Assembly: GCF_003584565.2 (NCBI RefSeq) | Contig: NZ_CP031010.1 | Location: forward strand, 186,001 to 250,000 | Reading direction: 5' to 3' | DNA length: 64,000 bases | Source: Alteromonas sp. RKMC-009 | GTDB lineage: Bacteria > Pseudomonadota > Gammaproteobacteria > Enterobacterales > Alteromonadaceae | In this document: positions 5,291 to 64,000 of the stretch, piece after piece | Numbering within the stretch: the stretch's first letter is position 1 | Layout of the letters: each line of letters starts with the position of its first letter | Program-made: the position numbers and the translations under genes | The notes under the pieces: generated by a model | Databases searched by the model: none | What the model was told of the DNA's origin: nothing | What the model saw: only the letters and a program-made list of their open reading frames with translations

Positions 5291-5298
5291 GAGTCACT

Positions 5299-6072: not shown

Positions 6073-6074
6073 GC

Positions 6075-10684: not shown

Positions 10685-10697
10685 CAGGAAGTAAAAA

Positions 10698-13966: not shown

Positions 13967-14719
13967 TTAACAATCTGAGATCAGTGTTCCCCCGTCTACC
14001 ACAATATCCTGACCTGTTGTAAAGCCACCGGCTGCACTGGCCAGATAAAGTGCGGTAGCGGCGATTTCATCTGTTGAGCCAAGGCGGTTAAGTGGCGTTT
14101 GTTGCATACGTTTCGTCATAAACGCAGCGTCCGCCTGCAGATGTTTTGATAATGGCGTATCAATAAGACCGGGGCAAATACAATTGGCAGTAATGCCATA
14201 TTTGCCTTGTTGCACCGCGTAGTTGCGGGCAAGCTGAGACAGTCCGGCCTTCGTGACCGAATACAGCCCCAAGGCCGATGTGCCCCGTTTGCCCGCAATA
14301 CTGCCTACGTAAATTAACCGTCCGTCACCCCGCTGCTGCATGCCTTTAACTGCGGCAGCAGACAGTAACTGGGCTGACAGCAGATTAATTCTCATGGTAC
14401 GCAACCAGTCGGCCTCAGCGCAGTCGTCCATGCTTCCCACATGACCTTCAATGCCTGCGGTGTGAATAACAATGTCTACCGGCGCATTCTGAATATGCTG
14501 GATGAGCGCATCAGCACCGCCTTCAGCACTGAAATCCGCAGGAATATACACTGTACCGGGCGGAGTTTCCCGGAAGCTGTGCTCACGGTCAGCCAGAATA
14601 AGCTTTGCACCAGCCTCCAGAAAAAGACGGGCAATGGCACTGCCAATCCCGCCCAGTGCACCTGTCACCACTACGCGTTTGTTCTCAACGCTGAACAAGG
14701 AAGCGACATTAGCGGTCAT
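13967..14719 (-). CDS. SDR family oxidoreductase
   Basis: A 250-aa short-chain dehydrogenase with TGALGGIG at about 18-25, HTAG in place of NNAG, catalytic YSVTK near residue 156 and the C-terminal TGQDIVVDGGT. Its ATG overlaps the stop of the upstream fumarylacetoacetase-like gene by 4 bp (ATGA), indicating translational coupling. Third gene of the SDR/FAH/SDR operon. Confidence 0.92.
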   Translation of the reverse strand: MTANVASLFSVENKRVVVTGALGGIGSAIARLFLEAGAKLILADREHSFRETPPGTVYIPADFSAEGGADALIQHIQNAPVDIVIHTAGIEGHVGSMDDCAEADWLRTMRINLLSAQLLSAAAVKGMQQRGDGRLIYVGSIAGKRGTSALGLYSVTKAGLSQLARNYAVQQGKYGITANCICPGLIDTPLSKHLQADAAFMTKRMQQTPLNRLGSTDEIAATALYLASAAGGFTTGQDIVVDGGTLISDC

Positions 14720-15693
14720 GGTTTTACCATGATGTGGTCAATTTTGCCGAATACGCTCTGACCCAGGTGATCTTTCACGTCGAAGCTGAGGGATTCACCG
14801 TATTTTAGAAAATCGGTTTTCACTTCACCGTATTCCAGAATGTCCAGTGCACGGCGCTCTGCCAGACAGGCAGAACCTGTTTCTTTCCAGTCTTTACTGG
14901 AAACAGTGCCTGAACCTAAAATCATTCCGGCTTTGATGTTTCGGTTGTACGTGATGTGCTGAAGGATTTGCCCGAAAGAAAAGTCCATTTCGCCGCCATT
15001 AGGGTGACCAAACCATTCCCCGTTCCGGCTCACTTCCATGTTCAGGTGCACACGTCCGTCTTTCCAGGCATCCCCCAGTTCATCCGGGGTAACCGCTACC
15101 GGTGCAAACACGGTTGCTGGCTTTGCCAGTATAAAGCCAAAGCCCATTTGTAATTCACGGAAAAGATGCTTACGCATGCTCATGTCATTTAAAATGGTGA
15201 TCAGTCTTACCTTGTCCAGCGCTTCAGAGGCTGACGCCCCCATTGGAATATCGCCGGTAATCACCGCAAATTCCCCTTCAAAATCGGCATTATCTTCTTC
15301 AGAAGGGAATGCATAATCTTCATGGGGCCCCATAAAGTCATCGCTCTGACGCTGAATAAGAATAGGGATGTTTGGATCTTTCTTCACATCCAGGTCGAAG
15401 GCCTTTTCCATAATGTTGCCATGGTTTAAAAATGCCGAAGCATCAATGAACTGGTGGCAGCGGGGCAGGGGCGCCATAGCCTCCTGAGGATTAAACGTGA
15501 ATGCGCCTGAAACCGTATTGTCATTAAGCTTGTCGTAAATGGCGGTGAGATCAGCAAGCACCGCGTCCCAGTTTTCCAGTGCCAGCTGCATGGTTTTAGC
15601 AATATGGGAAACGTCTGCTGCCCGGGTTAAATCACGGGATACCACTAAAAGGGTTCCGTCGCGGGTGCCGTTTTTCAGTGTTGCCAGTTTCAT
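14716..15693 (-). CDS. Fumarylacetoacetate hydrolase family protein
   Basis: A 325-aa protein with the layout of bacterial fumarylacetoacetases. The N-terminal domain begins MKLATLKNGTRDGTLLVVS. The catalytic domain has the acidic metal-site region FEGEFAVITGD, LNDMSMR, the FGFILAKP stretch and GSGTVSSKDW. It would hydrolyse the C-C bond of a 1,3-diketo acid at the end of a gentisate- or homogentisate-like ring-cleavage pathway. Start at 15693 is preferred over 15750 because AAGGAG lies just upstream and family members begin here. The flanking SDRs are co-transcribed. Confidence 0.92.
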   Translation of the reverse strand: MKLATLKNGTRDGTLLVVSRDLTRAADVSHIAKTMQLALENWDAVLADLTAIYDKLNDNTVSGAFTFNPQEAMAPLPRCHQFIDASAFLNHGNIMEKAFDLDVKKDPNIPILIQRQSDDFMGPHEDYAFPSEEDNADFEGEFAVITGDIPMGASASEALDKVRLITILNDMSMRKHLFRELQMGFGFILAKPATVFAPVAVTPDELGDAWKDGRVHLNMEVSRNGEWFGHPNGGEMDFSFGQILQHITYNRNIKAGMILGSGTVSSKDWKETGSACLAERRALDILEYGEVKTDFLKYGESLSFDVKDHLGQSVFGKIDHIMVKP

Positions 15694-15703
15694 AGCCTTC
15701 TCC

Positions 15704-16568: not shown

Positions 16569-17483
16569 TCAGCCGAAGGTTTCGCGGGCTGTAGTAATAA
16601 TTTGCTCACGTAACCATACCAGTGCCGGGTCATGATCGCGGTATTTGTGCCATTGCAATGCCCAGGCGATTTCCGGCAGTGGTTTGGGTAGCGGCACAAT
16701 TTTTATCGGGATGAGTTTTTGCCAGTGCTCTGCGAGATGCTGGTAAACCGTGGCAATTCTGCCGGTGCCGGGCAAAAACTGGGGAATGGCGTTAAAGGTC
16801 GAAGTAATAATTTCCACATTAGGTTCAACCCGCCACTGATCTTTCATCAGTACCTGGTCCTGGCTGGTTACCCGGCTGGTACCAAATTTTACTGTAACGT
16901 GTCCCAGGTTCAGGAACTCATCCATGGTCATGTTACTGTGCACGGCATCGTTCTGTGCGCAGGCGATACTGACAAATTTCTCTGAAAACAGTTCTACTGA
17001 AGGGTGATGATCAACCTTTACCGACGTGGGCATGATCATAAAATCCACTTCTGCACGGTCGAGCATTTCCCCGGGCTTATTGGTGGGGATGAAAAATTCA
17101 AACTGGATTTCCGGCGCCAGGGTATTGATATGCTTGGCTACTGCTGTGAGTAGCACTGTACTGCTGTAATCGCCAGCCAGAAATTTAAACTTCCGGTTAC
17201 AGGTAAACGGGTCGAATTCAATGCCCCGTTCTACCGTTGCCTGAATTTGCAACAGAATATTGTGAACCGGTTCGGCCAAGCTTTCTCCCAGCGGGGTAGG
17301 CTGCATTTTCGCACCCACCCGCACCAGTAGATCGTCATTGAAGAATTCCCGCAACCGCGCCAGAGCACCGCTGGTGGCAGGCTGACTCAAACAAATACGT
17401 TCAGCTGCCAGCGTAATACTGCGTTCGGTCAGCAAGGCATCCAGTGCTACCAGTAAATTGAGGTCGAGTCTGTTTAAACGCAT
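16569..17483 (-). CDS. LysR-family regulator of the NodD/NahR group
   Basis: A 304-aa activator with the N-terminal winged helix-turn-helix MRLNRLDLNLLVALDALLTE..AAERICLSQPATSGALARLR (residues 1-48), close in pattern to NodD and NahR, and a C-terminal effector-binding domain. NodD senses flavonoids and NahR senses salicylate, so an aromatic inducer is likely. It lies between the two minus-strand operons it probably controls. ATC-N9-GAT sites, the form bound by this group, occur at 10111, 16529 and 20082. Confidence 0.92.
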   Translation of the reverse strand: MRLNRLDLNLLVALDALLTERSITLAAERICLSQPATSGALARLREFFNDDLLVRVGAKMQPTPLGESLAEPVHNILLQIQATVERGIEFDPFTCNRKFKFLAGDYSSTVLLTAVAKHINTLAPEIQFEFFIPTNKPGEMLDRAEVDFMIMPTSVKVDHHPSVELFSEKFVSIACAQNDAVHSNMTMDEFLNLGHVTVKFGTSRVTSQDQVLMKDQWRVEPNVEIITSTFNAIPQFLPGTGRIATVYQHLAEHWQKLIPIKIVPLPKPLPEIAWALQWHKYRDHDPALVWLREQIITTARETFG

Positions 17484-17594: not shown

Positions 17595-18728
17595 TTAAAT
17601 TGGCGCCATTAATGCGCTCATGGTCAACGCCATAACCTGAATATGCTCTACTTTTGAACCGCCGGTTTGCTCGATTTCACCGAGTCGGCGGGAGTTATTC
17701 ACAATCATACTGCAACGGGGCCAGCGGCGATTCTCGAAGCGGGTGAAGATCTCTTCTACCGTGCCACCTGATGCAATTTCATCGGCTATCACCACAGCAT
17801 CTTCATGGCCCATACCTGCACCCGACGCCAGATGGGGTGTTGTGGCATGAACTGCATCCCCCATCAGCAATATCCGGCCTTTAAACCAGGGACGGGGCAT
17901 GATCATCCCTTCCAGCGGGCGTGCCAGAATACTGGATGACTCAGAGAGTTCTGCTTTCACAGCTTCAATAACCGGTGCAGTAAAAGGCGCAATCAGGTTC
18001 TGCAGGTAAGGCAGCAGTTCGTCATCAGCGATGCGGGACTTTTGTGGCCGTTGTTCGGTGTAATTCAGGTACATGTGGGTGGATGATACCGGGGTAAAAC
18101 CAAGTTTACCGTTGCTTCCGTAAAACAATGCCGGACGTTCCAGACCGTGACGTTCCACCACCGCGCGCCACACCACCTGACCCGTATATTGAGGCACCGG
18201 TGCACCTTCAAAGTACTGTTCACGGGTTTTAGAAAACACACCATCTGCCGCGAGTACCATGTCAAACACATGCTCAGAGCCATCTGTCAGAATGGCTTTA
18301 ATGCCCTCTTCCTGCTCTGTCAGTGTTTCGTAGGTGCAGCCAAGGTGAACATGTACGCCACTTTGCTGCACTTTTTCAGCCAGAATACCGGCTAGTACCG
18401 GGCGCATGATGCCGCCACCGCCGGTAATACTTGAGCCGGGGACTGCAGGGGTAACAATTTGACGCAGGAATGTACCGTCTGCAGTGAGCATGTCGACGTT
18501 CTGGCAAATAGCACCGTGGCGGCGGAATTCGTCAATCAGGCCAATCTGCTCTATGGCCCGCAGCGACGGACCGCTTACTGTGATACCGGCACCGTCTGTT
18601 TTCCATTTTTCATCCAGCTCAACAAGGTGTACTTCTATTCCCTGTTTACTTAGCAGAATGGCTGTAGACATTCCGGTGAAGCCGCCACCGACAATTAGCA
18701 CTTTATTTACTGATGATGTCATGTTCAT
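17595..18728 (-). CDS. FAD-dependent aromatic-ring monooxygenase
   Basis: A 377-aa class A flavoprotein monooxygenase. The FAD-binding GGGFTGMSTAILLSKQG is near the N-terminus, and the GD motif GRILLMGDAVHATTPHLASG is at about residues 278-297, with AGMGHEDA following. Relatives hydroxylate phenolic acids (salicylate and 3-hydroxybenzoate hydroxylases) using NAD(P)H. Its ATG overlaps the Rieske gene stop by 4 bp. Third gene of the VOC/Rieske/monooxygenase operon. It probably prepares the ring for cleavage. Confidence 0.9.
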   Translation of the reverse strand: MNMTSSVNKVLIVGGGFTGMSTAILLSKQGIEVHLVELDEKWKTDGAGITVSGPSLRAIEQIGLIDEFRRHGAICQNVDMLTADGTFLRQIVTPAVPGSSITGGGGIMRPVLAGILAEKVQQSGVHVHLGCTYETLTEQEEGIKAILTDGSEHVFDMVLAADGVFSKTREQYFEGAPVPQYTGQVVWRAVVERHGLERPALFYGSNGKLGFTPVSSTHMYLNYTEQRPQKSRIADDELLPYLQNLIAPFTAPVIEAVKAELSESSSILARPLEGMIMPRPWFKGRILLMGDAVHATTPHLASGAGMGHEDAVVIADEIASGGTVEEIFTRFENRRWPRCSMIVNNSRRLGEIEQTGGSKVEHIQVMALTMSALMAPI

Positions 18729-19105
18729 GCTCTTTTTGTTTCTGAGCCAGGGTACCAGACCAGATCCCCGTGACTGTTTATTTCTACCTGTACCGGCGTT
18801 AAGTGAGTCCCTTTACAGGGGCCGGAAATACATAAACCGGTGTTGCGTTCGAACAGTGCGCCGTGTGAGCCGCATTTAATGAACTGGCCAGACCCGTCCA
18901 GAAAAGCATCTTTTTTCCAGGCCATGGACGCATGTTCGTAGCCCTTGTGCGGACAACTGTTACGAAAAGCAGCAATACTGCTATGGCCGGTTCTCACAAC
19001 AAAAATAGACGCTGCCTGCTGTGCGCCGGTGCTGAAACCTTTACTGGTATTCAGCGGAATATCGTCCAGCGCACACAGGGTGATGCCATCAGTGCGGATC
19101 GCCAC
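18725..19105 (-). CDS. Rieske [2Fe-2S] ferredoxin-like protein
   Basis: A 126-aa protein with the Rieske ligands C51-x-H53 and C78-xx-H81 (SCPHKG and KCGSHG) bound to a small beta fold. It is too small to be an oxygenase, so it is an electron carrier of the kind that serves oxygenases. The GTG start at 19105 overlaps the end of the VOC gene by 17 bp, and the stop overlaps the next ATG, so the three products are translationally coupled. A partner reductase is not visible in the window. Confidence 0.92.
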   Translation of the reverse strand: MAIRTDGITLCALDDIPLNTSKGFSTGAQQAASIFVVRTGHSSIAAFRNSCPHKGYEHASMAWKKDAFLDGSGQFIKCGSHGALFERNTGLCISGPCKGTHLTPVQVEINSHGDLVWYPGSETKRA

Positions 19106-20021
19106 CGGGCATCCATTTTTTCACCAGGGTGAAATTGAAAATTTGCGAGGCATCTGCGCTGGCCATGGCTTCCCGTGGCGTCCAGCTGTCATCATGCAGA
19201 TCCATATCTGCATCGTATTCAACGTGCACACCCATGGGGCTGTTGAAGTACCAGAAGTAGTTTGAACCGAAGATATGCCTGCCCGGACCCCAAAAGGTTT
19301 CGTAGCCTTTATCCTGAAAACGTTTGCCCGCCAGTAGCAGCTCGTTAGGCCCGGCCAGGTGGAAAGTAAAATGCTCACAACCCTGCATATGCGGCGGGGT
19401 ATCAATGAGAAACAGTGAGTGGTGGTCAAGGGTGCCCTGCGGGCGCAGAAACGGCCCTAACTGGGTGAAACGATCGGCAACCCGGAACCCGAGCCTGTCG
19501 ATGTAGAACGACTCTGCCTCTTTAATATTCGGAACGAAATAAACGACATGAGACAAGCTGGCAGGAATGATGTCGTAGCTGTCATCTGCGCCGGGTTCAT
19601 TTACCGGACGCTGTGGTGCGAAACCGGGAGAATTAATCTGCTCATTTTTACCGGTAAACGCCCTACGGCAGGTGATTTGAAACTTCAGCGCAAAACCGCT
19701 GTTGTCCACGGTAGACAGGCTACCGTCCTCACCGGTGACCACTTCACGGTCAGTGCTCAGTTCCGCCCTGATGGCATCCAGTGTGGCCTGGTTATCTACG
19801 CCATACACGGTTTGTCTCAGCATTGATGCGGTAGGTAACGGTGCAGGTAGTGCTGCATTATCTTTATGCCTGATGATAACAGCGGTGCCATCCTGTCCTT
19901 CAAAGCGGCCACCCTCATCAGATACATCCACAGGAACAAGGCCGTAATCGGTGAGGTACTGACAACAAGCCTGTACGTCGTCAACACCGAATACCAGTTC
20001 GTCTAAACCAACTATATTCAT
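19089..20021 (-). CDS. Two-domain VOC protein, extradiol dioxygenase-like
   Basis: A 310-aa protein with two VOC modules (about 1-130 and 150-295), the size of type I extradiol ring-cleavage dioxygenases. In the second domain, candidate metal ligands are H in LSHVVYFVPN, H in TLDHHSLFL and E in GVHVEYDADMD, the expected 2-His-1-carboxylate set. First gene of the operon with a Rieske protein and a ring hydroxylase, so ring cleavage of a catechol- or hydroquinone-like intermediate is the best guess. A VOC lyase cannot be excluded. Confidence 0.85.
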   Translation of the reverse strand: MNIVGLDELVFGVDDVQACCQYLTDYGLVPVDVSDEGGRFEGQDGTAVIIRHKDNAALPAPLPTASMLRQTVYGVDNQATLDAIRAELSTDREVVTGEDGSLSTVDNSGFALKFQITCRRAFTGKNEQINSPGFAPQRPVNEPGADDSYDIIPASLSHVVYFVPNIKEAESFYIDRLGFRVADRFTQLGPFLRPQGTLDHHSLFLIDTPPHMQGCEHFTFHLAGPNELLLAGKRFQDKGYETFWGPGRHIFGSNYFWYFNSPMGVHVEYDADMDLHDDSWTPREAMASADASQIFNFTLVKKWMPGGDPH

Positions 20022-20081
20022 GGTAAATCCATCATTTCTTTAACTTAAAAGCAGTGTAGAGAGATGGGGAGCGGGTTTGAA

Positions 20082-20096
20082 ATCGCTTGATTGGAT
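20082..20096. promoter_or_regulatory. NodD-type LysR box 3 (ATC-N9-GAT)
   Basis: ATCGCTTGATTGGAT keeps the ATC-N9-GAT frame but with less symmetry than the other two boxes. It lies 61 bp before the VOC start, where an activator would sit. Confidence 0.4.
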
Positions 20097-20154
20097 GAAG
20101 GTTATTTACAACTCAGATACAGGATGGAAACAATTGGTGGGCAGATGAAACAAG

Positions 20155-20178
20155 CACACCGGAGAGGATTCCGGTGTG
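20155..20178. terminator. Terminator hairpin after the alpha/beta hydrolase
   Basis: CACACCGG pairs with CCGGTGTG around an 8-nt loop. The best T run is on the plus strand. On the minus strand it still falls directly after the hydrolase stop. Confidence 0.65.
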
Positions 20179-20205
20179 TTTTTTGGCGTCAGCTTTAAAA
20201 ACGTG

Positions 20206-21357
20206 TTACTTCATTTTCTCAAATTCTGCTGCGCACCAGTCGGCAATGTAATCCCGCATGCCGGTACCGTTATCTGCGCCACAGTGTTCAATTTCGAAAT
20301 CTTTTTTGGTGAATACACGAATATGGCGGTGTGCACTGTTTACTGCCTGTTCATATGAACGATAGGCGTTACTTACCGGAATCTGGCGGTCGCCTTCACC
20401 GTGGGTAACCAGAAACGGCATCTTCATTTTCTCAATTTGACCGTCCAGTGTCACATTGGGCATATAAGCCATAAAGTCATCAAGGTTTTCCTTTCCCCAT
20501 ACCCACAGCACGTGATCCCAATAATGTGGCACAGGGTTCTCACCTTCACGCTCCATGCGCTCTTTTTGTCTCTGGCCCCAAACATGATTAGCACCCATTA
20601 CTGCGCACAGTGCAAAACGGGGTTCATTTGCAGCCGCACGTGGCGCGTAATAACCACCCAGTGATAATCCGAAAATGCCGATGCGACTGGCGTCCACATC
20701 ATCACGTGATGCCAGATAGTCGAATGCCGGTGTTGCCCACTTTTCTGTATCGTACACCGCAGTCAGGCCGCGTTTACGCAGTGCTTCTCCGGTACCGGGC
20801 TGATCCACAAACAAAGTGTACATGCCCCGGTCCAGGTTAGATTTACCATGACCCGCCATGTTCACCTGTTCTTTCATCGAGTCCAGACCATTTACTGAAA
20901 CCAGCGCCGGACGCTTAATGCCACTGCCGTCGTGAACGAAAATTGCGGGGTAAGACGTGCCTTCGTAAGGAATATCCACAAAATCGACATATAAACCACT
21001 GCACTCTACGTGTTTACGGTACAGCGCAAGGCCTTTGTCATAGGCTTCCCAGCGGGGAGCATAGTCTCTGGATTGCATGCGTTCGGCAGACAGATAGTAA
21101 CCGGATGCGCGGGCGTACTTTGTTCCGGCAGACAACAAATAGCCTTCTTCTTCATCTTTGCGGGCGTTCTCTTCGACCTGCTTCGCCACTGCAATCCAGC
21201 TGTCAAAAAGCAATTCTGTACCGGCATCCTCGCCATTAGCGGCAGCCTCCAGAATAGGCCGGCAAGCTTCATCCACTTCGCCGTGATTGCCGCCGCATAC
21301 GAGCGCCAGATTAACTTGCAGATTCCAGACGTAATTGCCCTTGAACGGTTCGAACAT
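20206..21357 (-). CDS. Alpha/beta hydrolase, dihydroxypseudooxynicotine hydrolase-like
   Basis: A 383-aa hydrolase with a helical N-terminal cap domain (about 1-120) and an alpha/beta core. The nucleophile is S232 in GLSLGG. D322 (HGEGDRQIP) and H357 (IEHCGAD) complete a likely triad. The cap and core pattern match 2,6-dihydroxypseudooxynicotine hydrolase, which cuts the C-C bond between an aromatic ring and a ketone side chain. CAGGAG precedes the ATG. It lies upstream of the VOC/Rieske/monooxygenase operon but is separated by a hairpin. A role in splitting an aryl ketone, such as a flavonoid-derived chalcone or phenone, is inferred. Confidence 0.85.
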   Translation of the reverse strand: MFEPFKGNYVWNLQVNLALVCGGNHGEVDEACRPILEAAANGEDAGTELLFDSWIAVAKQVEENARKDEEEGYLLSAGTKYARASGYYLSAERMQSRDYAPRWEAYDKGLALYRKHVECSGLYVDFVDIPYEGTSYPAIFVHDGSGIKRPALVSVNGLDSMKEQVNMAGHGKSNLDRGMYTLFVDQPGTGEALRKRGLTAVYDTEKWATPAFDYLASRDDVDASRIGIFGLSLGGYYAPRAAANEPRFALCAVMGANHVWGQRQKERMEREGENPVPHYWDHVLWVWGKENLDDFMAYMPNVTLDGQIEKMKMPFLVTHGEGDRQIPVSNAYRSYEQAVNSAHRHIRVFTKKDFEIEHCGADNGTGMRDYIADWCAAEFEKMK

Positions 21358-26063: not shown

Positions 26064-26458
26064 TGTACGGTTACCTCTTTTTCGACATCTGTGCGTTGTA
26101 CCAGCGGGAAGTTGGGGCCGATGATGATGTATGGAATGCGGGTAGCCAGAGACACCGCCAGTTTCGTCTTTTCGCCGGCATTGACCGGAGATGCATCCGG
26201 CACCTGAAAGGTCAGTGCATCCTGAACAAACCACCAGTCTTCGGTACGGTCTGCCAGTGCACTGAGAGGTAACAGTTCACCCTCCCACTTCAATTTCACA
26301 TCCTCACTGGTAAAAGACTTATCGCCCAGTGTGATAGTAATGCTTTCAATACAAGACAAAGGTAATGAACGATACCAGGCAATATGCACCGCAACGTCAT
26401 AACCCTCTGATGTGCGTGAAACGGCATCGTCCCGGATCACGTTAGCTTCGAGTGTCAT
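26060..26458 (-). CDS. C-deglycosidase beta-subunit-like protein (CGDB/DUF6379 type)
   Basis: A 132-aa all-beta protein. It aligns by eye along its length with the first 120 residues of the fusion protein at 54765: RSLPLSCIESITITLGDK versus RGVPASLIDGIDIELNGK, then LPLSAL versus LSLAQL, and IPYIIIGPNFPL versus RPYIPGPFC. This is the pattern of the small beta subunit of C-deglycosidases, which completes the active site of the alpha barrel. GGAG precedes the ATG. First gene of a two-gene operon divergent from the GMC oxidoreductase, with a palindromic operator 32 bp upstream. Confidence 0.82.
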   Translation of the reverse strand: MTLEANVIRDDAVSRTSEGYDVAVHIAWYRSLPLSCIESITITLGDKSFTSEDVKLKWEGELLPLSALADRTEDWWFVQDALTFQVPDASPVNAGEKTKLAVSLATRIPYIIIGPNFPLVQRTDVEKEVTVQ

Positions 26459-54541: not shown

Positions 54542-54764
54542 TGCCTGATAATGAATAACAGTTATCAGCCAGGAGCACCAATTAAATAAAGAGAAACATT
54601 GCGTTGTATTCCTTCAGGTTTCTGAAACCGGACAGTAATTCGAATATTCGATAAAGCTGAATATATCTAAGAAATTGATACCAAATATCCGCAAAATTCA
54701 TTTCTTGAATGATAAGGCATTGCATACCATCGGCGTTGTTTACAACCAGTTAACAGGAGCCCCT

Positions 54765-56048
54765 ATGCTGGAAAGACAACTCGTACAAGCCAGAGGCAGC
54801 AAAGCCTTAACGCTGGGAGACGGCACGCCGGCCTTTCAGTTTCAAATTAAGAACCCGAATTACCGCGGTGTACCGGCAAGCCTCATCGATGGTATCGACA
54901 TTGAATTGAATGGTAAGCAGTATGCCCACGATGCGGCAAGCTGGACACTGGGCGGTCAAACCCTGTCACTCGCGCAATTGCAGGAAAGCGAAACCCTGCG
55001 CTGGCCGCTGGATGAACTGGCTACCATTACCTTGCCGGTTGATGCACCGTTAGAGGCGGGCGTACAGGATTTGTCTGTGTGTGTTTACATCAGACGCCCT
55101 TATATTCCGGGCCCGTTCTGCCGGTCTCCGTTTCGCGCCAAAGCAAAGCCGGTGATCATTGGTGAAAATAAGAATACCGGTATGCCGCTGAGCGTTTCTA
55201 CCTACAGCTACACCGGTGATATGTACACGCTCATTACGCTGGAAGACTTCATGGCAGATGCTGCGGATATGGGCGCGACCGGTATTGAAATGCTCGCTGA
55301 AGCTAATCTGCCCGGTTACCCGGATGTGTCTGCTGAATGGAAAGCAAGCTGGTTTGCTTTGCTGGAGAAGTATCATCTAACGCCAACGAATCTGGGGACC
55401 TGGATAGACACCGCCCGCTGGCACAGCCGTGACCTCACTGCAGACGAAGGCGCAGCGCAGCTGGAGCAGGATTTGAAACTGGCAGCAGAGCTAGGCTTTA
55501 CCTCTATCCGGCCAAAATTTGGTGTGACATCCCTTGAACTGGACCCGCACCCCATCTGGCAGGAAGCTGTGCTACGTGCCTTACCGCTGGCAGAAGAACT
55601 GAATGTGATTATTTGTCCGGAAATCCACAGCCCGACACCAATCAAACATAAAGTGACACAGGACTACATTGCTTTCATTAAAAAGCACAATACCACGCAC
55701 TTTAAGCTGATGATCGACACCGGTATCTTCCAAACAGCGCCTTGTGACGATGGCCACGAAGGTATTGAGGTGAAGGGTGGCAAACGTCCTCCGTTCCTGG
55801 AACCGCTGGCAGTACCCATGGCTGATTTTGCTGAAATTATGGAGCACGTTTACTTTATTCAAACCAAGTTTTTCGAGATCGACGATAACCTCAATGATCT
55901 GCACATTCCTTGGGACGCCATTGTTGCCACACTGAAAGAGTGTGGATGGAAAGGCTGGTTGTCCAGCGAGTACGAAGGCCGCAGAGAGCCATACCGGGGC
56001 CGTGATCAGGTTCGTCGTCAGCACGCTTTACTGAATAAGCTGTTATAA
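54765..56048 (+). CDS. Single-chain C-deglycosidase-like fusion (beta subunit + alpha TIM barrel)
   Basis: A 427-aa protein. Residues 1-130 match the small CGDB/DUF6379 beta subunit (see 26060). Residues about 140-427 form a xylose-isomerase-like TIM barrel like the alpha subunit at 25065. Metal-site positions are E286 (with H288 in EIHSP), D318, Q366 and E402. The position that is His263 in the split enzyme is Gln here (IQTKF versus IHGKF). Start at 54765 with AGGAG upstream. Known C-deglycosidases are made of two chains, so this is a natural fusion. Probably cleaves a 3-keto glycoside made by the GMC dehydrogenase at 60565. Confidence 0.8.
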   Translation: MLERQLVQARGSKALTLGDGTPAFQFQIKNPNYRGVPASLIDGIDIELNGKQYAHDAASWTLGGQTLSLAQLQESETLRWPLDELATITLPVDAPLEAGVQDLSVCVYIRRPYIPGPFCRSPFRAKAKPVIIGENKNTGMPLSVSTYSYTGDMYTLITLEDFMADAADMGATGIEMLAEANLPGYPDVSAEWKASWFALLEKYHLTPTNLGTWIDTARWHSRDLTADEGAAQLEQDLKLAAELGFTSIRPKFGVTSLELDPHPIWQEAVLRALPLAEELNVIICPEIHSPTPIKHKVTQDYIAFIKKHNTTHFKLMIDTGIFQTAPCDDGHEGIEVKGGKRPPFLEPLAVPMADFAEIMEHVYFIQTKFFEIDDNLNDLHIPWDAIVATLKECGWKGWLSSEYEGRREPYRGRDQVRRQHALLNKLL

Positions 56049-56337: not shown

Positions 56338-58683
56338 ATGAAAAATATGAATTTGCCTTATAAAAAATTGGCAGTTGCTATTGCTACGCTGCTCACCACG
56401 CCTGTGATTCATGCACAGGAAGCAGACGTTGCAAACCCTGGTGCAACTGAGGATTCTGGTCTGGAAATCATTCAGGTGACGTCCCAGCGCAGAGTGGAAA
56501 ATCTGCAGGAAGTGCCGGTGAGTGTTACAGCTATCTCACCTACAGAGCTGGAGCGAAAGAATGTGTCAGACGTGTATCAGATGACACTGAATGCCCCAAG
56601 CTTTCAGATTGGCGAAGACAACTCCATGTCTATCCGTGGTGCCGGTACACTGGCGTTTTCTTCGTCGTTGGATTCCAGTGTGGCCGTGGCTTTTGATGAA
56701 GTGAATCTTGGCCGCCGTTATCTGATGGGCGCGGTGTTTAATGACATTTCACAAATTGAGGTATTGAGCGGACCTCAGGGTCTGTTGTTTGGTAAGAATG
56801 CCTCTGCAGGTCTGGTCAACATTACTTCTACTAAGCCACAGTTAGGCTACACCGAAGGTAAAATTGATGTGGAATACCAACTGCGTGACACCACACCGCA
56901 GGATGGCAGAAGCATTATCACCCGTGGCATGTACAACATCCCACTCACCGACAATTCTGCCCTGCGTATCAACGCTCACTATGCAGCTGAAGATCCGGTG
57001 GCCCGTGCTATCAAAGTGGTGGGCGATCCTAAACTGGACGAAGAAACCACTGACTGGGGTGTAAAGCTCAAGTACCTGAACGAGCTTTCTGAAGAAGTTA
57101 GCGTGTATGTGATTGCCGATACAAACAAAGAATCTGGTGTGGCCGGTAACTTTGACCGTACTTTCCGTTCTATCGGTGAGGGCAGCGGCAAGCTGGATAC
57201 TATTCTTGCAGACGGTGTCGTGCCGGGGGATGAAAACCTGGACTACGGCGCCGATGCCGACAATTTCCGTGATGTGGAAATGGGTGGTCTGATGGCGAAA
57301 GTCACCTGGGCTGTGAATGACAACTATGAATTGTCGAATATCACCGCATGGCGCTACTTCGAGCTGGTGCAGGGCACAGACGACAACATGGCCTCAAATG
57401 AACTGAACATCAATTTTACCACCAGTGAATATGACCAGTTTAGTAACGAAACCCGCTTATCGATGGATTTCGACAATATGCGCGGTCAGGTCGGCTTGTA
57501 TTATTTCCATTCAACACAATCAGAAGACCGTTTCCTTGCCGGTGATGGCCTGTTGCCAGCGTTCCTGTTGCCTAACTTCCCGTTCTGCGTGGGTGCCGAA
57601 GTGGTTGAAGGTGATATGTGTTCTGTCAGTAATGACCATTTTATCGGTAATGATACGGTCATGGATATGGAAACAGACAGTGCGGCCATTTTCGGTCAGT
57701 TTGATTTCCTGCTCACAGACGACCTCACTCTTACCACAGGTTTGCGCTATACCTACGACGAAATCTATATCGATCTGGCGAACTTCCAGCGCTATAACTT
57801 CTTCACCACCATCGGCACGCCGGCGTTAAGAGAAGAAACAAATTCGTCGGATAATGTCTCCGGCAAGGTATCGCTGCAGTATCAACTCGACGATGACAAA
57901 ATGGTTTATGCCTCCTATTCCCGCGGCTACAAGGGGCCTGGCTACACCAATACGCCATCACCGGAGCAAACGGATATCTTTATTCAGCCGGAAGTAGTCG
58001 ACAACTACGAGATCGGTGCGAAAACGGTGTGGCTCGACAATCACCTCATCGTGAATGCCAGTGTGTTCGATCAGCAGTTCGACGATTATCAGGTGCAGGC
58101 GTTTGATGCCGCTATCAGTCAGTCGGTTATCCAGAATGCAGCCAGCCTGTCGTCTACAGGTGTGGAACTTAGCATTACCGCTATGCCGTTTGAGTCGCTG
58201 ACGGTGAATGGCGGAGCTACTTTGATGGATTCCCAGTTCGACAGCTTCCCGGGGGCCGCATGTTACCCGCAACAACCGGACTGTGATGAAAACGGTACCT
58301 TTGATGCTGCGGGCTTAACACCGCCGACAGCCGCGAAGTTTACCTCAACCGCTTCTGCTACCTACGATTTCGAGTTGCCGCTGGACGGCTACGGATTCGT
58401 AACGCTGAACTATTACCACCGTGATCCGGTGAACTACCTGATTTCCAATGCGCCGCAAACCCGCATCGGCAATGTAGACCAGTTTGGTCTGAACATTGGT
58501 GTTCGTCTGGACAATGGCTGGGATATCACATTGTTCTGCAAAAACTGTACTGACGAGAAAGTGCCGGTGGCAACGGGTATCGACGCGGGTGACAGTGCTC
58601 AATACGGTACAACTTCAGTGGTACAAAGCTGGGGCTTTAACTCGGTGCGCAACATTGGATTGCGTGTGAGTTACGGCTTCTGA
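56338..58683 (+). CDS. TonB-dependent receptor 6
   Basis: Outer-membrane receptor of 781 aa with signal peptide to about 27 (VIHAQ), TonB-box-like LEIIQVTSQRR and a plug whose signature reads LSGPQGLLFGKNASAG, diverged from the RGPQGTLYGRNA of the other short receptors here. Three cysteine pairs (FCVGAE..CSV, CYPQQPDC, FCKNC) are unusual. The barrel ends LRVSYGF. It opens the module 2 set with an MFS, a Tat subunit and a GMC enzyme. It probably imports the module 2 glycoside. Confidence 0.94.
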   Translation: MKNMNLPYKKLAVAIATLLTTPVIHAQEADVANPGATEDSGLEIIQVTSQRRVENLQEVPVSVTAISPTELERKNVSDVYQMTLNAPSFQIGEDNSMSIRGAGTLAFSSSLDSSVAVAFDEVNLGRRYLMGAVFNDISQIEVLSGPQGLLFGKNASAGLVNITSTKPQLGYTEGKIDVEYQLRDTTPQDGRSIITRGMYNIPLTDNSALRINAHYAAEDPVARAIKVVGDPKLDEETTDWGVKLKYLNELSEEVSVYVIADTNKESGVAGNFDRTFRSIGEGSGKLDTILADGVVPGDENLDYGADADNFRDVEMGGLMAKVTWAVNDNYELSNITAWRYFELVQGTDDNMASNELNINFTTSEYDQFSNETRLSMDFDNMRGQVGLYYFHSTQSEDRFLAGDGLLPAFLLPNFPFCVGAEVVEGDMCSVSNDHFIGNDTVMDMETDSAAIFGQFDFLLTDDLTLTTGLRYTYDEIYIDLANFQRYNFFTTIGTPALREETNSSDNVSGKVSLQYQLDDDKMVYASYSRGYKGPGYTNTPSPEQTDIFIQPEVVDNYEIGAKTVWLDNHLIVNASVFDQQFDDYQVQAFDAAISQSVIQNAASLSSTGVELSITAMPFESLTVNGGATLMDSQFDSFPGAACYPQQPDCDENGTFDAAGLTPPTAAKFTSTASATYDFELPLDGYGFVTLNYYHRDPVNYLISNAPQTRIGNVDQFGLNIGVRLDNGWDITLFCKNCTDEKVPVATGIDAGDSAQYGTTSVVQSWGFNSVRNIGLRVSYGF

Positions 58684-58755: not shown

Positions 58756-60003
58756 GTGACAGACTCCTCTTCCCGACATACCCCCCAGGGCATTGTTCTT
58801 CTTTTCGTGCCGGTATTTATCATGCTGGGGCCGGTACTGATTTCGCCCATTATCGGCTCGCTGTTTCAGCAATTCGCCGGTGAACCCTATGCCAATGTGC
58901 TGGTTCCTCTGCTGTTAACCGCGCCCGCGCTTTGTCTGGCGTTATGTTCTCCTGTGGCAGGGTTTCTTGCAAACCGCATAGGGGGCAAAAAGGTACTGGT
59001 ATTTTCACTTGCCTTTTACGGTGTGGTAGGGGCGGCGCCTATGTTTGTCAGCTCGCTGCACGGTATGTTGTTTTTCCGCATATTACTGGGTGTGGCTGAA
59101 GCCGGTATTATCACCGGCGGCATGGTATTAACTGCCAGCTACTTCAGCGGCGATGATCGTCAGAAATGGATTGCCTGGCAAAACGTCGCCCTGCCGTTAA
59201 TTGGCGCAGCATTATTGTACGCAGTGGGCATAGTAAGTCAGACAAACTGGCAAAATACCTTCGGGCTCTATGGCCTCAGTCTGATTATTTTTGTCGCTGC
59301 CGCTTTTGTTTTATTCGAGCCTGAAAAGCAGCTGGCAGCATCAACACATCATGCACCGGCAAGTAAGGTGCGCATTCCCGTTACTACCATGTTGCTGCTG
59401 GCGGCTATTGCTATTCCGGGCTCGCTGTCTTTCTATGCGGTGCCGGTAAAGCTGTCTTTTATTCTCCGTGAAATGGGCGAAACCTCACCGGCGGTGGTGG
59501 GCGAGCTCATGTCTATGGGATTGATTTTCGGGTCTCCCGCAGGCGCACTGCTGGCCAGACTGGTGAAACACTGGCGGTTTAGCTATGGATTAGTCTGCGC
59601 CATGCTGCTGATGGCTGCCGGGCTTATTATGCTGGGTATCGCAGAGTCCAAAGCCATGATGATGGCAGCAGTCATTATTCAGCAAGCGGGCGGCGGCTTA
59701 ATGCTGGTGGTCGCGCTAACACTGGTACTGCACATGGCTCCGAAAGGTCAGAGCGGTATTTACTCCGGCTACTGGTGGCTGGTGTATACGCTGGCCAATT
59801 TCGCCACGCCGCTGGTATTAACCGCGCTGGACGTTTTAACCGGCAGCAGTGCTGCCACCATGCTGACATTCGGTGTGATTGTTGCCGCTATCAGTGGCTG
59901 GTTACTGTTCGCCCGTCCGCTGGCAACCAGTATGGTGAGTGCATCAGACGCGAATTCTGCAACAAGGGCAAATACAAGTGCAGCAGGAGCTGGCCATGAA
60001 TAA
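58756..60003 (+). CDS. MFS transporter
   Basis: A 415-aa inner-membrane carrier starting at GTG with AGGAACGA upstream. About 12 hydrophobic segments, loop motif GFLANRIGGKKVL, and clear paralogy with the transporter at 12595. Its stop overlaps the next ATG by 8 bp, so transporter, small subunit and GMC dehydrogenase form one operon. It likely moves the glycoside or its keto form across the inner membrane. Confidence 0.92.
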   Translation: MTDSSSRHTPQGIVLLFVPVFIMLGPVLISPIIGSLFQQFAGEPYANVLVPLLLTAPALCLALCSPVAGFLANRIGGKKVLVFSLAFYGVVGAAPMFVSSLHGMLFFRILLGVAEAGIITGGMVLTASYFSGDDRQKWIAWQNVALPLIGAALLYAVGIVSQTNWQNTFGLYGLSLIIFVAAAFVLFEPEKQLAASTHHAPASKVRIPVTTMLLLAAIAIPGSLSFYAVPVKLSFILREMGETSPAVVGELMSMGLIFGSPAGALLARLVKHWRFSYGLVCAMLLMAAGLIMLGIAESKAMMMAAVIIQQAGGGLMLVVALTLVLHMAPKGQSGIYSGYWWLVYTLANFATPLVLTALDVLTGSSAATMLTFGVIVAAISGWLLFARPLATSMVSASDANSATRANTSAAGAGHE

Positions 60004-60568
60004 TCATTTTGACCACGCCCGCCGCAATTTTATTACCGGCATGCTGGTTGTGTCCGGTCTCACCGTTTTACCTGCAAAAGTGTGGGCAGTGGCAGAGAAG
60101 CAGCCTTCATCTAATCCGGATAATTTGTTCCTGAGCACCCTGTGCGATCTTGTGATCCCGCAAACGGATACTCCAGGTGCCGTTGACGTAAAAGTACCTG
60201 AATTCGTTGAGGTGGCCGTGAAACATGGCTTGTCCGGTGCGCCTGTGGATGCCCTCAGTCGATTTGAATTTGCACTGCTTAGCGACGTGCCCGGCTTCAA
60301 CACCTTAAGTTACCAGCAGCAAATTGAAGCACTCACCCCAATCGACAATGGCAGCTTCAGCCGCAATCCGGCAGAGAAACCACAAGGCGATCTGGCGTTA
60401 TGGAAAGCCATCAAAGCGCTTATTGTTACCGGCTATTACACATCGCAAGCCGGCAGCAGTGAAGAACTACGCTACGTGCTTATTCCCGGCAAGTTCGATG
60501 CAGATGTGCCCGCCGATGCGTCAACCCGCGCATTTTCAAGTGACTGGACAGGAGTAAAATTCGGATGA
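59996..60568 (+). CDS. Tat-exported small subunit of an FAD glycoside dehydrogenase (gluconate 2-dehydrogenase subunit 3 family)
   Basis: A 190-aa protein with a twin-arginine signal (HARRNFITGMLVVSGL) and a hydrophobic stretch to about residue 30. The body (LCDLVIPQTDTPGAVDVKVPEF, ALWKAIKALIVTGYYTS) matches the gluconate 2-dehydrogenase subunit 3 / LacC-type small subunits that pair with GMC flavoproteins and carry them through the Tat pore. Start 59996 with GGAG upstream. Overlaps the MFS end by 8 bp and the GMC start by 4 bp (ATGA). Confidence 0.9.
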   Translation: MNNHFDHARRNFITGMLVVSGLTVLPAKVWAVAEKQPSSNPDNLFLSTLCDLVIPQTDTPGAVDVKVPEFVEVAVKHGLSGAPVDALSRFEFALLSDVPGFNTLSYQQQIEALTPIDNGSFSRNPAEKPQGDLALWKAIKALIVTGYYTSQAGSSEELRYVLIPGKFDADVPADASTRAFSSDWTGVKFG

Positions 60569-62253
60569 GTGAGCAGTACGATGCCATTGTTGTGGGCTCC
60601 GGCATTACCGGTGGCTGGGCAGCTAAAACCTTGTGTGAACAGGGCCTGAAAGTGCTGTTGCTGGAGCGGGGTAGGGATCTGCCTCACCGCAGTGGCTATA
60701 AAAATGAGATGAAAGCCCCCTGGGAGTTGCCTTTCCGGGGCGAGGGTGACCAGGCTTTTCTAAACGAACACCAGGCCGTTCAACAGCACAATATCCATCT
60801 TGATGAATGGACACAGGACTACTGGGTAAAAGATTCCGACCATCCTTATCACACGCAGAACGATACGGCGTTTAACTGGTACCGTGGCTACCACCTGGGC
60901 GGTCGTTCAATAATGTGGGGGCGGCAGTGTTATCGCTGGAGTGATACCGACTTTGAAGCTAACTTAAAAGACGGACATGGCACAGACTGGCCGGTGCGTT
61001 ACAGCGATCTGAAAAGGTGGTACGACAAAGTTGAAGCCTTTATCGGCGTATCCGGTGCAAAAGAAAATCTGTCCCAGTTGCCGGATGGTCAGTTTCAGCC
61101 GCCCATGGCGTTAACGCCAGTGGAAACACACATGCGTGAGCACATTGCCGCACATTATCCTGATCGCAGGCTCACCATCGGGCGCACGGCCAACCTGACT
61201 GAAAGCAAGCCGGAAGAAGGCCGTGCCGCGTGCCAGAACCGCTATATTTGCGGGCGCGGTTGCTCCTATGGTGCCTATTTTAGTACCCAGAGTTCTACCT
61301 TGCCCGCCGCAATGGCCACCGGCAACCTGACCGTAAAAACCGATGCGGTGGTCGAAACCGTGGATTACGACCCGCAACTAAAGCGAGCCCGCGGGGTGAC
61401 GGTGATTAACCGTCTTGATCAAAAACGCACACAGTATGCTGCCCGCATGGTGTTTTTATGTGCCGGTGCCTTTAACTCCGTTGCCTTGTTGCAGCGCTCG
61501 GTGTCTGATGCATTTCCTCAGGGGCTGGCAAACAACAGCGGCGTACTGGGCAAATACATTATGGATCACGCATCCACTCTGGGTGTGGCGTCGATAATGC
61601 CGGGTTTCAATGATCACTATTATTACGGAAACCGGCCCACAGGTATTGTTATTCCCCGGTTTGTGAACATGGGAGAAGACAAGCGGGAGTTTTTACGGGG
61701 CTTCTCTTATCAGGGCGGTGCGTACCGGCCAAGCTGGAGCCGGGGTACAAACATGCCCGGACTCGGTCATTCATTTAAAGAAAATTTACGGCAACCGGGT
61801 GACTGGAAGTTTGTACTCACCACGTTTGCTGAGTGTCTGCCAAGGGAAGGCAATGCCATCAGCCAGAACTGGCAGGCAAAAGATGCAGACGGCTTGCCGG
61901 TACTGAATATCAATTTCGCCTTCGGTAAAAACGAACATGATTTGCTGAGTGCGGCGAAAGAAGAAGCCGCTGCTATGGTGGCGAAAGCCGGTGGCCATGT
62001 ACTGTTCGGCTCAGATCGGCCAAACCCCGGCGGCTCAGCCATTCACGAAATGGGCGGCGCGCGCATGGGGCGTGATGCCAGAACATCGGTTTTGAACGGG
62101 TATAATCAATCTCACGATGTCCCCAATCTGTTTGTGACAGACGGTGCTGCCATGGCATCGTCAGCCTGCCAGAATCCCTCTCTTACCTACATGGCACTGA
62201 CTGCCAGAGCAGCAACATACGCTGCAGAGCAGTTACGGGCGGGAAGGGTGTAG
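60565..62253 (+). CDS. Fe-S GMC glycoside dehydrogenase (glucoside 3-dehydrogenase-like)
   Basis: A 562-aa FAD enzyme. N-terminal motif VVGSGITGGWAAKTLCEQG. A CX5CX3C cluster motif at C223, C229, C233, the spacing that binds a [3Fe-4S] cluster in FAD glucose dehydrogenase. Catalytic H494 and N537. It has no signal of its own and is probably co-exported with the Tat small subunit encoded just upstream (4-bp overlap). By analogy with glucoside 3-dehydrogenases (LacA type), it oxidises sugar C3 and passes electrons to a cytochrome not found in the window. Confidence 0.9.
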   Translation: MSEQYDAIVVGSGITGGWAAKTLCEQGLKVLLLERGRDLPHRSGYKNEMKAPWELPFRGEGDQAFLNEHQAVQQHNIHLDEWTQDYWVKDSDHPYHTQNDTAFNWYRGYHLGGRSIMWGRQCYRWSDTDFEANLKDGHGTDWPVRYSDLKRWYDKVEAFIGVSGAKENLSQLPDGQFQPPMALTPVETHMREHIAAHYPDRRLTIGRTANLTESKPEEGRAACQNRYICGRGCSYGAYFSTQSSTLPAAMATGNLTVKTDAVVETVDYDPQLKRARGVTVINRLDQKRTQYAARMVFLCAGAFNSVALLQRSVSDAFPQGLANNSGVLGKYIMDHASTLGVASIMPGFNDHYYYGNRPTGIVIPRFVNMGEDKREFLRGFSYQGGAYRPSWSRGTNMPGLGHSFKENLRQPGDWKFVLTTFAECLPREGNAISQNWQAKDADGLPVLNINFAFGKNEHDLLSAAKEEAAAMVAKAGGHVLFGSDRPNPGGSAIHEMGGARMGRDARTSVLNGYNQSHDVPNLFVTDGAAMASSACQNPSLTYMALTARAATYAAEQLRAGRV

Positions 62254-62321: not shown

Positions 62322-62969
62322 TCAGGCGTTGTGATCGGGGGAACACAGGTAGTAGGTTTGCACTTCGGTCACTTCTTCCAGCAATTCTTCCCAGCTCAAC
62401 CCTTCTGTAATGGGCTCCAGGCTGCCGAATCCCAGGTATCTTGCCAGCGACGTGTTGAGAATTTTAAAACAGGTATGGGCTACCCGTTCCGGGTTCTCCC
62501 GTTTTATCTCGTCTTTGAATTGCAGCAGCAGTGATTCATACAGCGCCTGACTGTTTTTATAAATTTTCGTACCGGCTTCAGAAACGATTTTGTCACTAAG
62601 GGCGAGTTTCATGAAGGCGCGGATAAGCGGCGCAAAAATTTGTAAATGTTCGGCGTATTCACGGCCAGCTTGCTTAATGGCTTCCTTTAACGACGTTGTG
62701 GTTTCAGACAGCTTAAGAAACCGGGCTTCAATATCTTTCGATGCTTGCAGGTACTCTTTTTTCTGTAATTCAATCAACAGGGTTTCTTTGCTTTCAAAGC
62801 GGTAATAAATAGACCCCACTGACACACCAGTCAGTTTACTGAGTTCTTTAAGCGTAAATTCATCAGGGCCTTTTTCTTTCAGTAAATTTGCAGACACCTC
62901 AAATATTTTTTCCTGAGCGTTACGGCTCCGGCGCTGCTGTGCCTGACGAAATCGGGCAGGTTCGTTCAT
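62322..62969 (-). CDS. TetR-family transcriptional regulator
   Basis: A 215-aa repressor. The HTH ELSKLTGVSVGSIYYRFESKETL lies at about residues 42-64, shown here in part as TGVSVGSIYYRFESK. The ligand-binding helical domain follows. Its own start is preceded by a palindrome at 62997. Divergent from the GH43 gene and convergent with the GMC operon, so it probably controls part of module 2. Confidence 0.9.
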   Translation of the reverse strand: MNEPARFRQAQQRRSRNAQEKIFEVSANLLKEKGPDEFTLKELSKLTGVSVGSIYYRFESKETLLIELQKKEYLQASKDIEARFLKLSETTTSLKEAIKQAGREYAEHLQIFAPLIRAFMKLALSDKIVSEAGTKIYKNSQALYESLLLQFKDEIKRENPERVAHTCFKILNTSLARYLGFGSLEPITEGLSWEELLEEVTEVQTYYLCSPDHNA

Positions 62970-63115: not shown

Positions 63116-63180
63116 TGTGCATTAGCACGCAAAATGCTTCCCTTATGTGTTTTGATGCTAATGCACACATTCTTTTTTTT
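63116..63180 (+). promoter_or_regulatory. Leader hairpin plus T run before GH43 (possible attenuator)
   Basis: Perfect twelve-base arms TGTGCATTAGCA (63116) and TGCTAATGCACA (63156) flank a 28-nt loop and are followed by a T-rich run. It lies inside the GH43 leader, 53 bp before the ATG. It could stop transcription conditionally or be a repressor site. Confidence 0.5.
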
Positions 63181-63232
63181 ACAGAAAAAATTGTCAGGTT
63201 CGACAAAATCGGGCCTCAGACGGAGTAATGCC

Positions 63233-64000
63233 ATGCCAGTGTCACGCAGAGATTTTCTTTCCTTATCCACCGGAGCGGCCACCGGCCTGAGTTTATTACC
63301 GGGACTGTCTGTGGCATCAGCAAGCCAGCCTGCTTGGCGACGTTCAGCAGAAGGGCATCGTCAGGCTGACCTGGGTGACGGTACTTACCTGAATCCGGTA
63401 CTGGCCGGAGATTATCCTGACCCCACAATCCTGCGGGATGGTGACGATTACTACATGACCCATTCGTCGTTTGATGCTGCGCCGGGCATTTTAATCTGGC
63501 ACTCCAAAGATCTGGTGAACTGGCAACCCGTGGGCCCTGCGCTGGAAGAGCCGTTGGGGATTGTGTTTGCCATGGATTTAGTCAAACACAACGGCCGGTA
63601 CTACATCTATATTCCGTTTATGAAAGCGCCCTGGTCGCCGCCACTGGCAAGTTTTGCCAATATTATGGTGATTCACGCTGACAACATTGAGGGCCCATGG
63701 AGCGAACCTGTTGATCTGCACCTCGGCGGTGTGATTGACCCTGGCCACATCGTGGACGAGAAGGGGCAGCGCTGGCTGTTTACATCAGGCATTAAGCGAA
63801 TTCGACTGGCAGATGATGGTCTGTCGACCATCGGTGAGCTGGAGCAGGTGTATGATGGCTGGCAGTATCCTGATGACTGGATCACCGAAGCCTACGCACT
63901 GGAAGGACCTAAGTTATTCCGTCGCGGGGATTACTTCTATCTTGTGTCTGCAGTGGGTGGTACCGCTGGTCCTGCAACCGGCCATATGGTGATTGTGGCG
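63233..64000 (+). CDS. Glycoside hydrolase family 43 protein (partial, cut by window end)
   Basis: The first 256 codons of an open frame, no stop reached. Tat signal SRRDFLSLSTGAATG, then a five-bladed beta-propeller start: NPVLAGDYPDPTILRDGDDY with the catalytic base D63, and GGVIDPGH with the second conserved Asp. GH43 enzymes remove arabinose, xylose or galactose side chains. Start at 63233 with CGGAG upstream. Divergent from tetR. Its export fits trimming of oligosaccharides or decorated glycosides in the periplasm or outside. Confidence 0.9.
   Translation, partial: MPVSRRDFLSLSTGAATGLSLLPGLSVASASQPAWRRSAEGHRQADLGDGTYLNPVLAGDYPDPTILRDGDDYYMTHSSFDAAPGILIWHSKDLVNWQPVGPALEEPLGIVFAMDLVKHNGRYYIYIPFMKAPWSPPLASFANIMVIHADNIEGPWSEPVDLHLGGVIDPGHIVDEKGQRWLFTSGIKRIRLADDGLSTIGELEQVYDGWQYPDDWITEAYALEGPKLFRRGDYFYLVSAVGGTAGPATGHMVIVA

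Follow-up and report, generated by a model that had tools for sequence, protein, structure and literature searches.

The open reading frame at 54765..56048 (+) of a 64,000-nucleotide stretch of the Alteromonas sp. RKMC-009 genome (NZ_CP031010.1, positions 186,001 to 250,000; hereafter the window) raises the question of whether one polypeptide carries both subunits of a C-glycoside deglycosidase (CGD), what such an enzyme would act on, and whether it is new. The frame runs from an ATG at 54765 to a stop codon at 56048 and encodes 427 amino acids. By sequence reading, a Shine-Dalgarno-like AGGAG (54755..54759, +) lies 5 nt ahead of this ATG, and the alignments with relatives begin at residue 1 or 2; a TTG start at 54675 (457 aa) was rejected on these two grounds. 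The domain search of both halves identified CGDB (PF19906) at residues 2–113 (E = 1.1e-22; 80.4 bits, cut-off 27.6) and AP_endonuc_2 (PF01261) at residues 164–423 (E = 5e-18; 66.1 bits, cut-off 31.1), both over the curated cut-offs, and the CGD-type residues H288, E404, and Y33 were all present. These results confirm the fusion of CGD beta and alpha subunits that the initial annotation had proposed. The beta domain comprises residues 1–115 (54765..55109, +) and holds Tyr33, which corresponds to Tyr39β of PuCGE; the junction comprises residues 116–142 (55110..55190, +), and the alpha TIM-barrel domain occupies 55191..56042 (+). The N-terminal 134 amino acids alone matched the solved beta chains 8qvc_B, 7bvs_B, 7bvr_B, and 7dnm_B (E = 2e-9 to 1e-5), so that at the sequence level this part is a CGD beta domain and not a different fold. 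The NCBIfam search of the fused protein assigned no family. The protein would be cytoplasmic, as a reading by eye shows no signal peptide.

The fused frame, including the linker, was kept in four marine relatives with 62–75% identity, and in the same comparison the synonymous sites were near saturation and the non-synonymous sites were not. Sequencing error is therefore excluded as the source of the fused frame. The linker, which is short and variable and contains no added domain, was the least conserved part (33–59% identity against 69–80% for the alpha part), and the stop codon is absent where the fused genes cross the junction.

The best PDB match of the fused protein was 8QRZ_A (same sequence in 8UN2), a chain of 435 residues named “Sugar phosphate isomerase”, which aligned with residues 1–425 (E = 8.6e-127). 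It resembles the window protein in being a single, collinear chain with the beta domain followed by the alpha domain, in its 50% identity, and in the same mapped active-site residues, including Gln in place of the metal-binding His (in the motifs FIQTKF and FIQAKF of the two proteins). On the basis of this identity, the window protein likely folds as 8QRZ does, its beta domain packed against the barrel. Over its aligned 427 residues, 8QRZ shows 100% identity to a fused Microbacterium testaceum NS220 protein (L068). 8QRZ/8UN2 differs from the window protein in being actinobacterial and in that a second, divergent fused CGD follows its gene (L068), and it is known here from its sequence record alone. 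In the open-access literature, we found neither a paper behind 8QRZ/8UN2 nor a report of a fused CGD or its activity.

In regards to characterized CGDs, the initial annotation had described them as two-chain enzymes, which agrees with the available literature, including PMC8563793, whose authors found the two CGD genes side by side as far as they looked. The nearest two-chain solved alpha subunit was that of EuCGD (DfgA/DfgB; 7EXB and 7DRE, same chains as 7BVS; E = 2.8e-56), and its beta subunit matched the fused N-terminus with E = 1.9e-8, 8qvc_B being slightly nearer; EuCGD differs from the fused enzyme in its two chains, its gut Firmicute origin, and its retained metal His. PuCGD/PuCGE (DgpB/DgpC), AgCGD2, 8QVC (which we take to be the Deinococcus aerius CGD), and MiCGD (CarB/CarC) have the same two domains as the fused CGD. 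In the alpha chains compared (PuCGD, AgCGD2, and 8QVC), the catalytic His, Glu, and Lys are as in the fused CGD, whereas these three enzymes consist of two chains and have His, not Gln, as the metal ligand. According to the available descriptions of these four two-chain CGDs, a sugar-oxidizing enzyme acts first.

We scanned one genome per species using an alignment of three fused proteins, and the top 80 of the 95 confirmed matches gave 79 loci. The fused form was found in 59 of these 79 loci and the other 20 were not classed as fused, a ratio that is not a frequency because fused proteins served as the query and the scan covers the best 80 of 95 matches. Two of the 20 (L071 and L084) have the look of a frameshift. 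Within the same best 80 of 95 matches, actinobacterial records (Streptomyces, Geodermatophilus, Microbacterium, and others) accounted for 53 of the 59 fused loci and gammaproteobacteria for four (L018–L021); the last two were from Planococcus sp. APC 4015 (L046) and a 3.2-kb contig of Stenotrophomonas maltophilia (L061), whose copies are Microbacterium-like and whose records may be misassigned or contaminated. The suggestion that a single-chain CGD looks undescribed is thus overturned by this survey and by the solved homologue 8QRZ/8UN2: the architecture is not new and is widespread in actinobacteria. Plasmid records gave 22 matches, one of which, in Arthrobacter sp. StoSoilB13 (L097), has the fused form; three plasmid pairs from Croceicoccus/Novosphingobium (L098–L100, 44–46% identity) were split with the alpha gene first.

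The fused gene is rare near its own host. It was present in 2 of 60 relatives of the host (the window genome and G016), and a search of 295 genomes of the family at E 1e-40 gave three matches, i.e., the own genome, G1043 (intact fused gene, 61% identity), and G983 (short broken copy). Searches of the class (369 genomes) and the phylum (398 genomes) at E 1e-20 gave no match besides the own genome. The copy in the same-family genome G983 (L104, 1501–1992) is truncated and apparently a broken fused gene. The first fused gene of Microbacterium-type loci is followed, in 25 sequences, by another fused beta-alpha CGD gene, which is divergent and has His at the metal site. Two fused CGDs of different clades are in tandem there, the second open reading frames being, for example, L047 8177–9782, L049 8300–9784, and L097 7307–8794.

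The set of 131 beta-alpha pairs compiled from the loci and the window consisted of 86 fused, 28 split beta-first, and 17 split alpha-first pairs. Before counting, L015 and L016 (duplicates of the window and L020) and the loci under L013 in the domain search were left out; domain matches above E 1e-10, alpha sequences <260 aa, and beta sequences <85 aa were also dropped, the alpha sequence of L081 was unpaired, and L103 and L104 entered no pair count. For the trees, redundant rows (>85% identity to a retained row) were removed (68 kept), and the alpha tree contained 68 rows and the beta+alpha tree 61 rows, the latter without three long-branch pairs and the four PDB rows.

The metal ligands of AgCGD2 are Glu147, Asp179, His269, Lys271, and Glu305, and its catalytic residues are His149 and Glu307, as given in the available part of PMC8563793. 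By alignment, these residues correspond to E286, D318, Q366, K368, and E402 (metal site) and to H288 and E404 (catalytic residues) in the alpha domain of the window protein. The equivalents of E286, H288, D318, K368, E402, and E404 were invariant in 135/135 alpha sequences, and Tyr33 was invariant in 131/131 beta sequences. The fused protein departs from the metal set of two-chain CGDs (1 His, 2 Glu, 1 Asp, and 1 Lys) at a single position, where His is replaced by Gln366, and the other four ligands are kept. At this position, 80 of the 131 pairs have Gln and 51 have His, as do the four two-chain PDB chains compared. The pairs with Gln comprise 77 of the clade of the window protein, that is, every sampled member, both fused and split, and three Geodermatophilaceae pairs elsewhere. 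Gln366 could bind the metal, since Gln fills the same ligand position in the inosose isomerase IolI. The metal and activity of the fused CGD could differ from those of two-chain CGDs, considering that His269 is Gln366 here. Replacement of the metal His by Ala caused a drastic drop in the activities of PuCGD and MiCGD (PMC8563793, available part), and a clade-wide Gln at the position where Ala cost most of the activity makes the role of this ligand directly testable. A link between the fusion and the Gln metal site was rejected, because split members of the same clade have Gln and 25 fused sequences of another clade have His; three alpha-first Geodermatophilaceae pairs outside the clade, which also have Gln, are further evidence against it. 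The Gln in these Geodermatophilaceae alpha subunits, which belong to the 8QVC-like clade (L036, L038, and L042, alpha near 1100–2130), is apparently independent.

In both trees, the window protein grouped with Aestuariibacter sp. GS-14 and a gammaproteobacterial MAG with support values of 99–100. The clade around it contained 16 fused rows, the other 13 of which were actinobacterial (SH-aLRT 100). The place of this marine group among the 16 rows was not fixed in the alpha tree and was inside 15 of them with a support of 87 in the beta+alpha tree; the next larger clade (26 rows, support values of 92 and 98) contained no further non-actinobacterial rows. The nesting of the marine copies in an otherwise actinobacterial clade suggests lateral transfer from Actinobacteria, and we infer from it the direction of this transfer, by which the marine gene was probably received already fused. 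The G+C content of the fused gene (52%) is not distinct from that of the window (49.6%), and this resemblance neither supports nor opposes a recent transfer.

The fusion state requires four changes on the tree found, and three when only well-supported branches are counted. One of these changes was in the distant clade around AgCGD2 and concerns the second, divergent fused protein of the Microbacterium type (25 sequences, one of which is in the trees). In the first clade, to which the window protein belongs, forcing all 25 fused rows together cost 59 log units with an AU p value of 0.020, as calculated with a quick tree for a group picked post hoc. The number of changes and this cost indicate that fusion, or fission, occurred more than once. 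In the first clade, the stop codon of the beta gene and the start codon of the alpha gene overlapped as ATGA in 11 of the 13 split beta-first pairs, the other two having GTGA (L075) and a short gap (L085), and the fusion point in the window protein falls at the site of this overlap. An indel at the overlap would be the simplest cause of the fusion. An ATGA origin for every fusion was not borne out, because L042, a split member of the second clade, has a short gap between its genes. The second pair of L046 resembles a disrupted fused gene, and its label as split is doubtful.

The fused gene is followed by genes encoding a TonB-dependent receptor (56338..58683, +; PF00593 and PF07715), an MFS transporter (58756..60003, +; PF07690), a Gluconate_2-dh3-type small subunit (59996..60568, +, from ATG 59996; PF13618, searched from the longer GTG start at 59939), and a GMC FAD oxidoreductase (60565..62253, +; PF00732 and PF05199), which is probably the large subunit of a glycoside 3-dehydrogenase. 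The receptor and dehydrogenase that had been attributed to the fusion were thereby identified at the domain level. A receptor with 81–82% identity adjoins the fused gene in L018 and L019. The motif HARRNFITGM at the N-terminus of the small subunit resembles a Tat signal. The PDB relatives of the GMC enzyme were glucose dehydrogenase, the large subunit of fructose dehydrogenase, and, weakly, 7QF8 (E = 2.2e-11), the P. siccitolerans enzyme, whose relatives oxidize C-glycosides according to the available part of its description. A TetR-type regulator (62322..62969, −; PF00440) and the start of a GH43 glycosidase (63134..64000, +) come next; the latter continues beyond the window (L015:11135–12844, PF04616, E = 1.5e-85) and is followed in the genome by a GH106 α-L-rhamnosidase (L015:13029–16307, PF17132, E = 1.8e-218). 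GH106 genes were also found after the fused gene in L021 and in the actinobacterium L031, and this linkage would suit rhamnosylated C-glycosides. A sulfite/nitrite reductase gene lies directly upstream of the fused gene on the opposite strand.

In L018 and L019, the fused gene is part of one row in the order of α/β hydrolase, glyoxalase-fold dioxygenase, Rieske protein, FAD monooxygenase, fused CGD, TonB receptor, MFS transporter, and GMC oxidoreductase. L020 keeps the order of the first five genes, and the search beside its fused gene gave no receptor, MFS, or GMC homologue. At the position of the FAD monooxygenase, L021 and L103 encode a different enzyme of this type, with 77% identity to each other and about 25% to that of L018. 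The window contains homologues of the first four genes of the row at 17595–21357, 36 kb from the fused gene, with 45–56% identity (39–44% for the Rieske protein). These encode an FAD aromatic monooxygenase with a putative FdeE-like role (17595..18728, −; PF01494, E = 1.7e-27), homologues of which (45–46% identity) are encoded by the gene immediately ahead of the fused CGD in L018–L020; a Rieske protein with a putative FdeD-like role (18725..19105, −; PF00355); a glyoxalase-fold extradiol dioxygenase with a putative FdeC-like role (19089..20021, −; PF00903), whose matches to extradiol dioxygenase models fell well below the cut-offs; and an α/β hydrolase (20206..21357, −) akin to the 2,6-dihydroxypseudooxynicotine (DHPON) C-C hydrolase, with PDB 2jbw as its nearest solved relative (E = 1.4e-19). 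The module is adjoined by a LysR-type regulator (16569..17483, −; family by reading), with a 32–37% identical open reading frame upstream of the cluster in L018–L020, and an FAA hydrolase is encoded nearby (14716..15693, −; PF18288 and PF01557 on 14716–15750). The FAD monooxygenase, Rieske protein, and glyoxalase-fold dioxygenase occurred together in the window (17595–20021) and L018, as identified by Pfam, and in L019 and L020, as identified by similarity. The full module was not found in the 6–7 kb flanks of ten actinobacterial fused loci, of which L048 has one FAD monooxygenase match (28%).

As described in the available part of PMC8552027, FdeE together with FdeD hydroxylates the A ring of naringenin and FdeC serves in dioxygenation; the isoflavone cluster of Variovorax, which acts in A-ring cleavage, includes a hydrolase like the DHPON hydrolase (PMC11069340, available part). 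Likened by gene type only, the module of L018–L020 shares the FAD monooxygenase, Rieske protein, and glyoxalase-fold dioxygenase with the fde cluster of Herbaspirillum seropedicae, and the FAD monooxygenase, glyoxalase-fold dioxygenase, and DHPON-hydrolase-like protein with the Variovorax cluster. Unlike the rows of L018–L020, the available parts of the fde and Variovorax descriptions do not mention a CGD. Because the linked module matches the gene types of flavonoid A-ring cleavage, a flavonoid C-glycoside is the most likely substrate. The gene rows of L018 and L019 offer a testable route by which plant C-glycosides, which as a substrate class resist hydrolysis, could be broken down in marine environments.

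We consider it probable, at about 75%, that the fused gene encodes a single-chain CGD acting as a metal-dependent β-eliminase of 3-keto flavonoid C-glycosides after the GMC dehydrogenase. The first step would be periplasmic, where the GMC dehydrogenase, held by the Tat-exported small subunit, would oxidize C3 of the sugar of the glycoside, most likely a flavonoid C-glycoside. The fused CGD would then act on the 3-keto C-glycoside inside the cell. The metal, coordinated by E286, D318, Q366, K368, and E402, would hold the oxidized sugar, His288 would remove the C2 proton, and Tyr33 of the fused beta domain would bind the aglycone phenolate, and the aryl C-C bond would break to release the aglycone and 2-hydroxy-3-keto-glycal. 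The roles of the catalytic residues were measured in two-chain enzymes (PMC8563793 and PMC10628242, available parts). The GMC gene close to each of the four CGD loci of the genome and the gene rows of L018 and L019 favor this reading. Weighing against it are Gln366 in place of the metal His, the 36 kb between the aglycone module and the fused gene in the window, the reductase gene directly upstream on the opposite strand, the missing receptor, MFS, and GMC homologues in L020, and the absence of the full module from the 6–7 kb flanks of the ten actinobacterial fused loci, together with the weakly supported place of the marine group among the 16 rows. A single chain without subunit assembly would be a convenient tool enzyme.

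A different role for the same chain was also considered. The most serious alternative, although an unlikely one, is that the enzyme is mainly a 3-keto-O-glycoside (or broad) eliminase and that C-glycosides are not its natural substrates. The O-glucoside 3-keto phlorizin is another substrate of PuCGE (PMC10628242 and PMC13273386, available parts), the nearby GH106 rhamnosidase and GH43 (GH106 also in L021 and L031) fit an O-linked sugar decoration, and specificity for C-glycosides is not required of the GMC enzyme. However, the tyrosine retained in every one of the beta domains corresponds to the residue whose Y39F replacement in PuCGE abolishes nearly all of the C-glycoside activity and only part of the O-glycoside activity, and AtOGE, an O-glycoside enzyme, is a TIM-barrel homodimer (PMC10628242, available part). 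An ordinary sugar (phosphate) isomerase or epimerase, in which the beta domain would be structural only, agrees with the database name of 8QRZ and with membership in PF01261, but is very improbable considering the CGD beta domain with its invariant Tyr, the catalytic His, and the GMC linkage without an evident sugar-phosphate role; a plain sugar isomerase was rejected on the basis of this beta domain and the invariant catalytic residues.

The remaining alternative, an assembly or frameshift artefact of a two-gene pair, has next to no probability. A single indel at the ATGA overlap of the split relatives would join or part the frames, and L071 and L084 do appear frameshifted, but the fused frame occurs in L018, L019, L020, L021, and L103 with 61–75% identity, in 59 of the 79 loci that the best 80 of 95 matches gave, and in the solved 8QRZ. 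The artefact was rejected because independent genomes and 8QRZ carry the fused frame. Starting from the preferred reading as a single-chain CGD, a broader scenario can be proposed tentatively, at somewhat less than even odds. Fusion (or separation) of the beta and alpha genes of CGDs may have recurred, with one or more events in each of two deep clades and, in the clade of the window protein, at the ATGA overlap; the change from His to Gln may mark a second type of metal site with its own metal or regioselectivity; and the fused lineage in marine Alteromonadaceae may provide the entry enzyme of a single-row flavonoid C-glycoside pathway from outer-membrane uptake to A-ring cleavage.

The separate beta and alpha subunits that the initial annotation had noticed in the same window were confirmed by Pfam as a two-chain CGD pair at 25065–26458 (−), with the beta gene at 26060–26458 (PF19906, E = 3.1e-14), the alpha gene at 25065–26063 (PF01261, E = 1.9e-10), and an ATGA overlap between them. 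The pair is a distant paralogue, its local identity to the fused protein being 31% for the beta part and 24% for the alpha part. The genome contains four CGD loci, the fused one and three two-chain ones, and a GMC oxidoreductase gene lies within about 5 kb of each (identified by Pfam for the two in the window and by reading for the other two). The two-chain loci of the own genome at L013 6291–9999 and L014 8335–11991 are accompanied by small-subunit and GMC genes, named by reading. In L014, the beta and alpha genes are in the same frame with a single TAA between them. Two further putative catabolic groups were observed near TonB receptors in the window: a cupin and an FAD oxidoreductase (Amino_oxidase type) at 10193–12551, and a histidinol-dehydrogenase-like gene with SDR and glyoxalase genes at 3962–6497.
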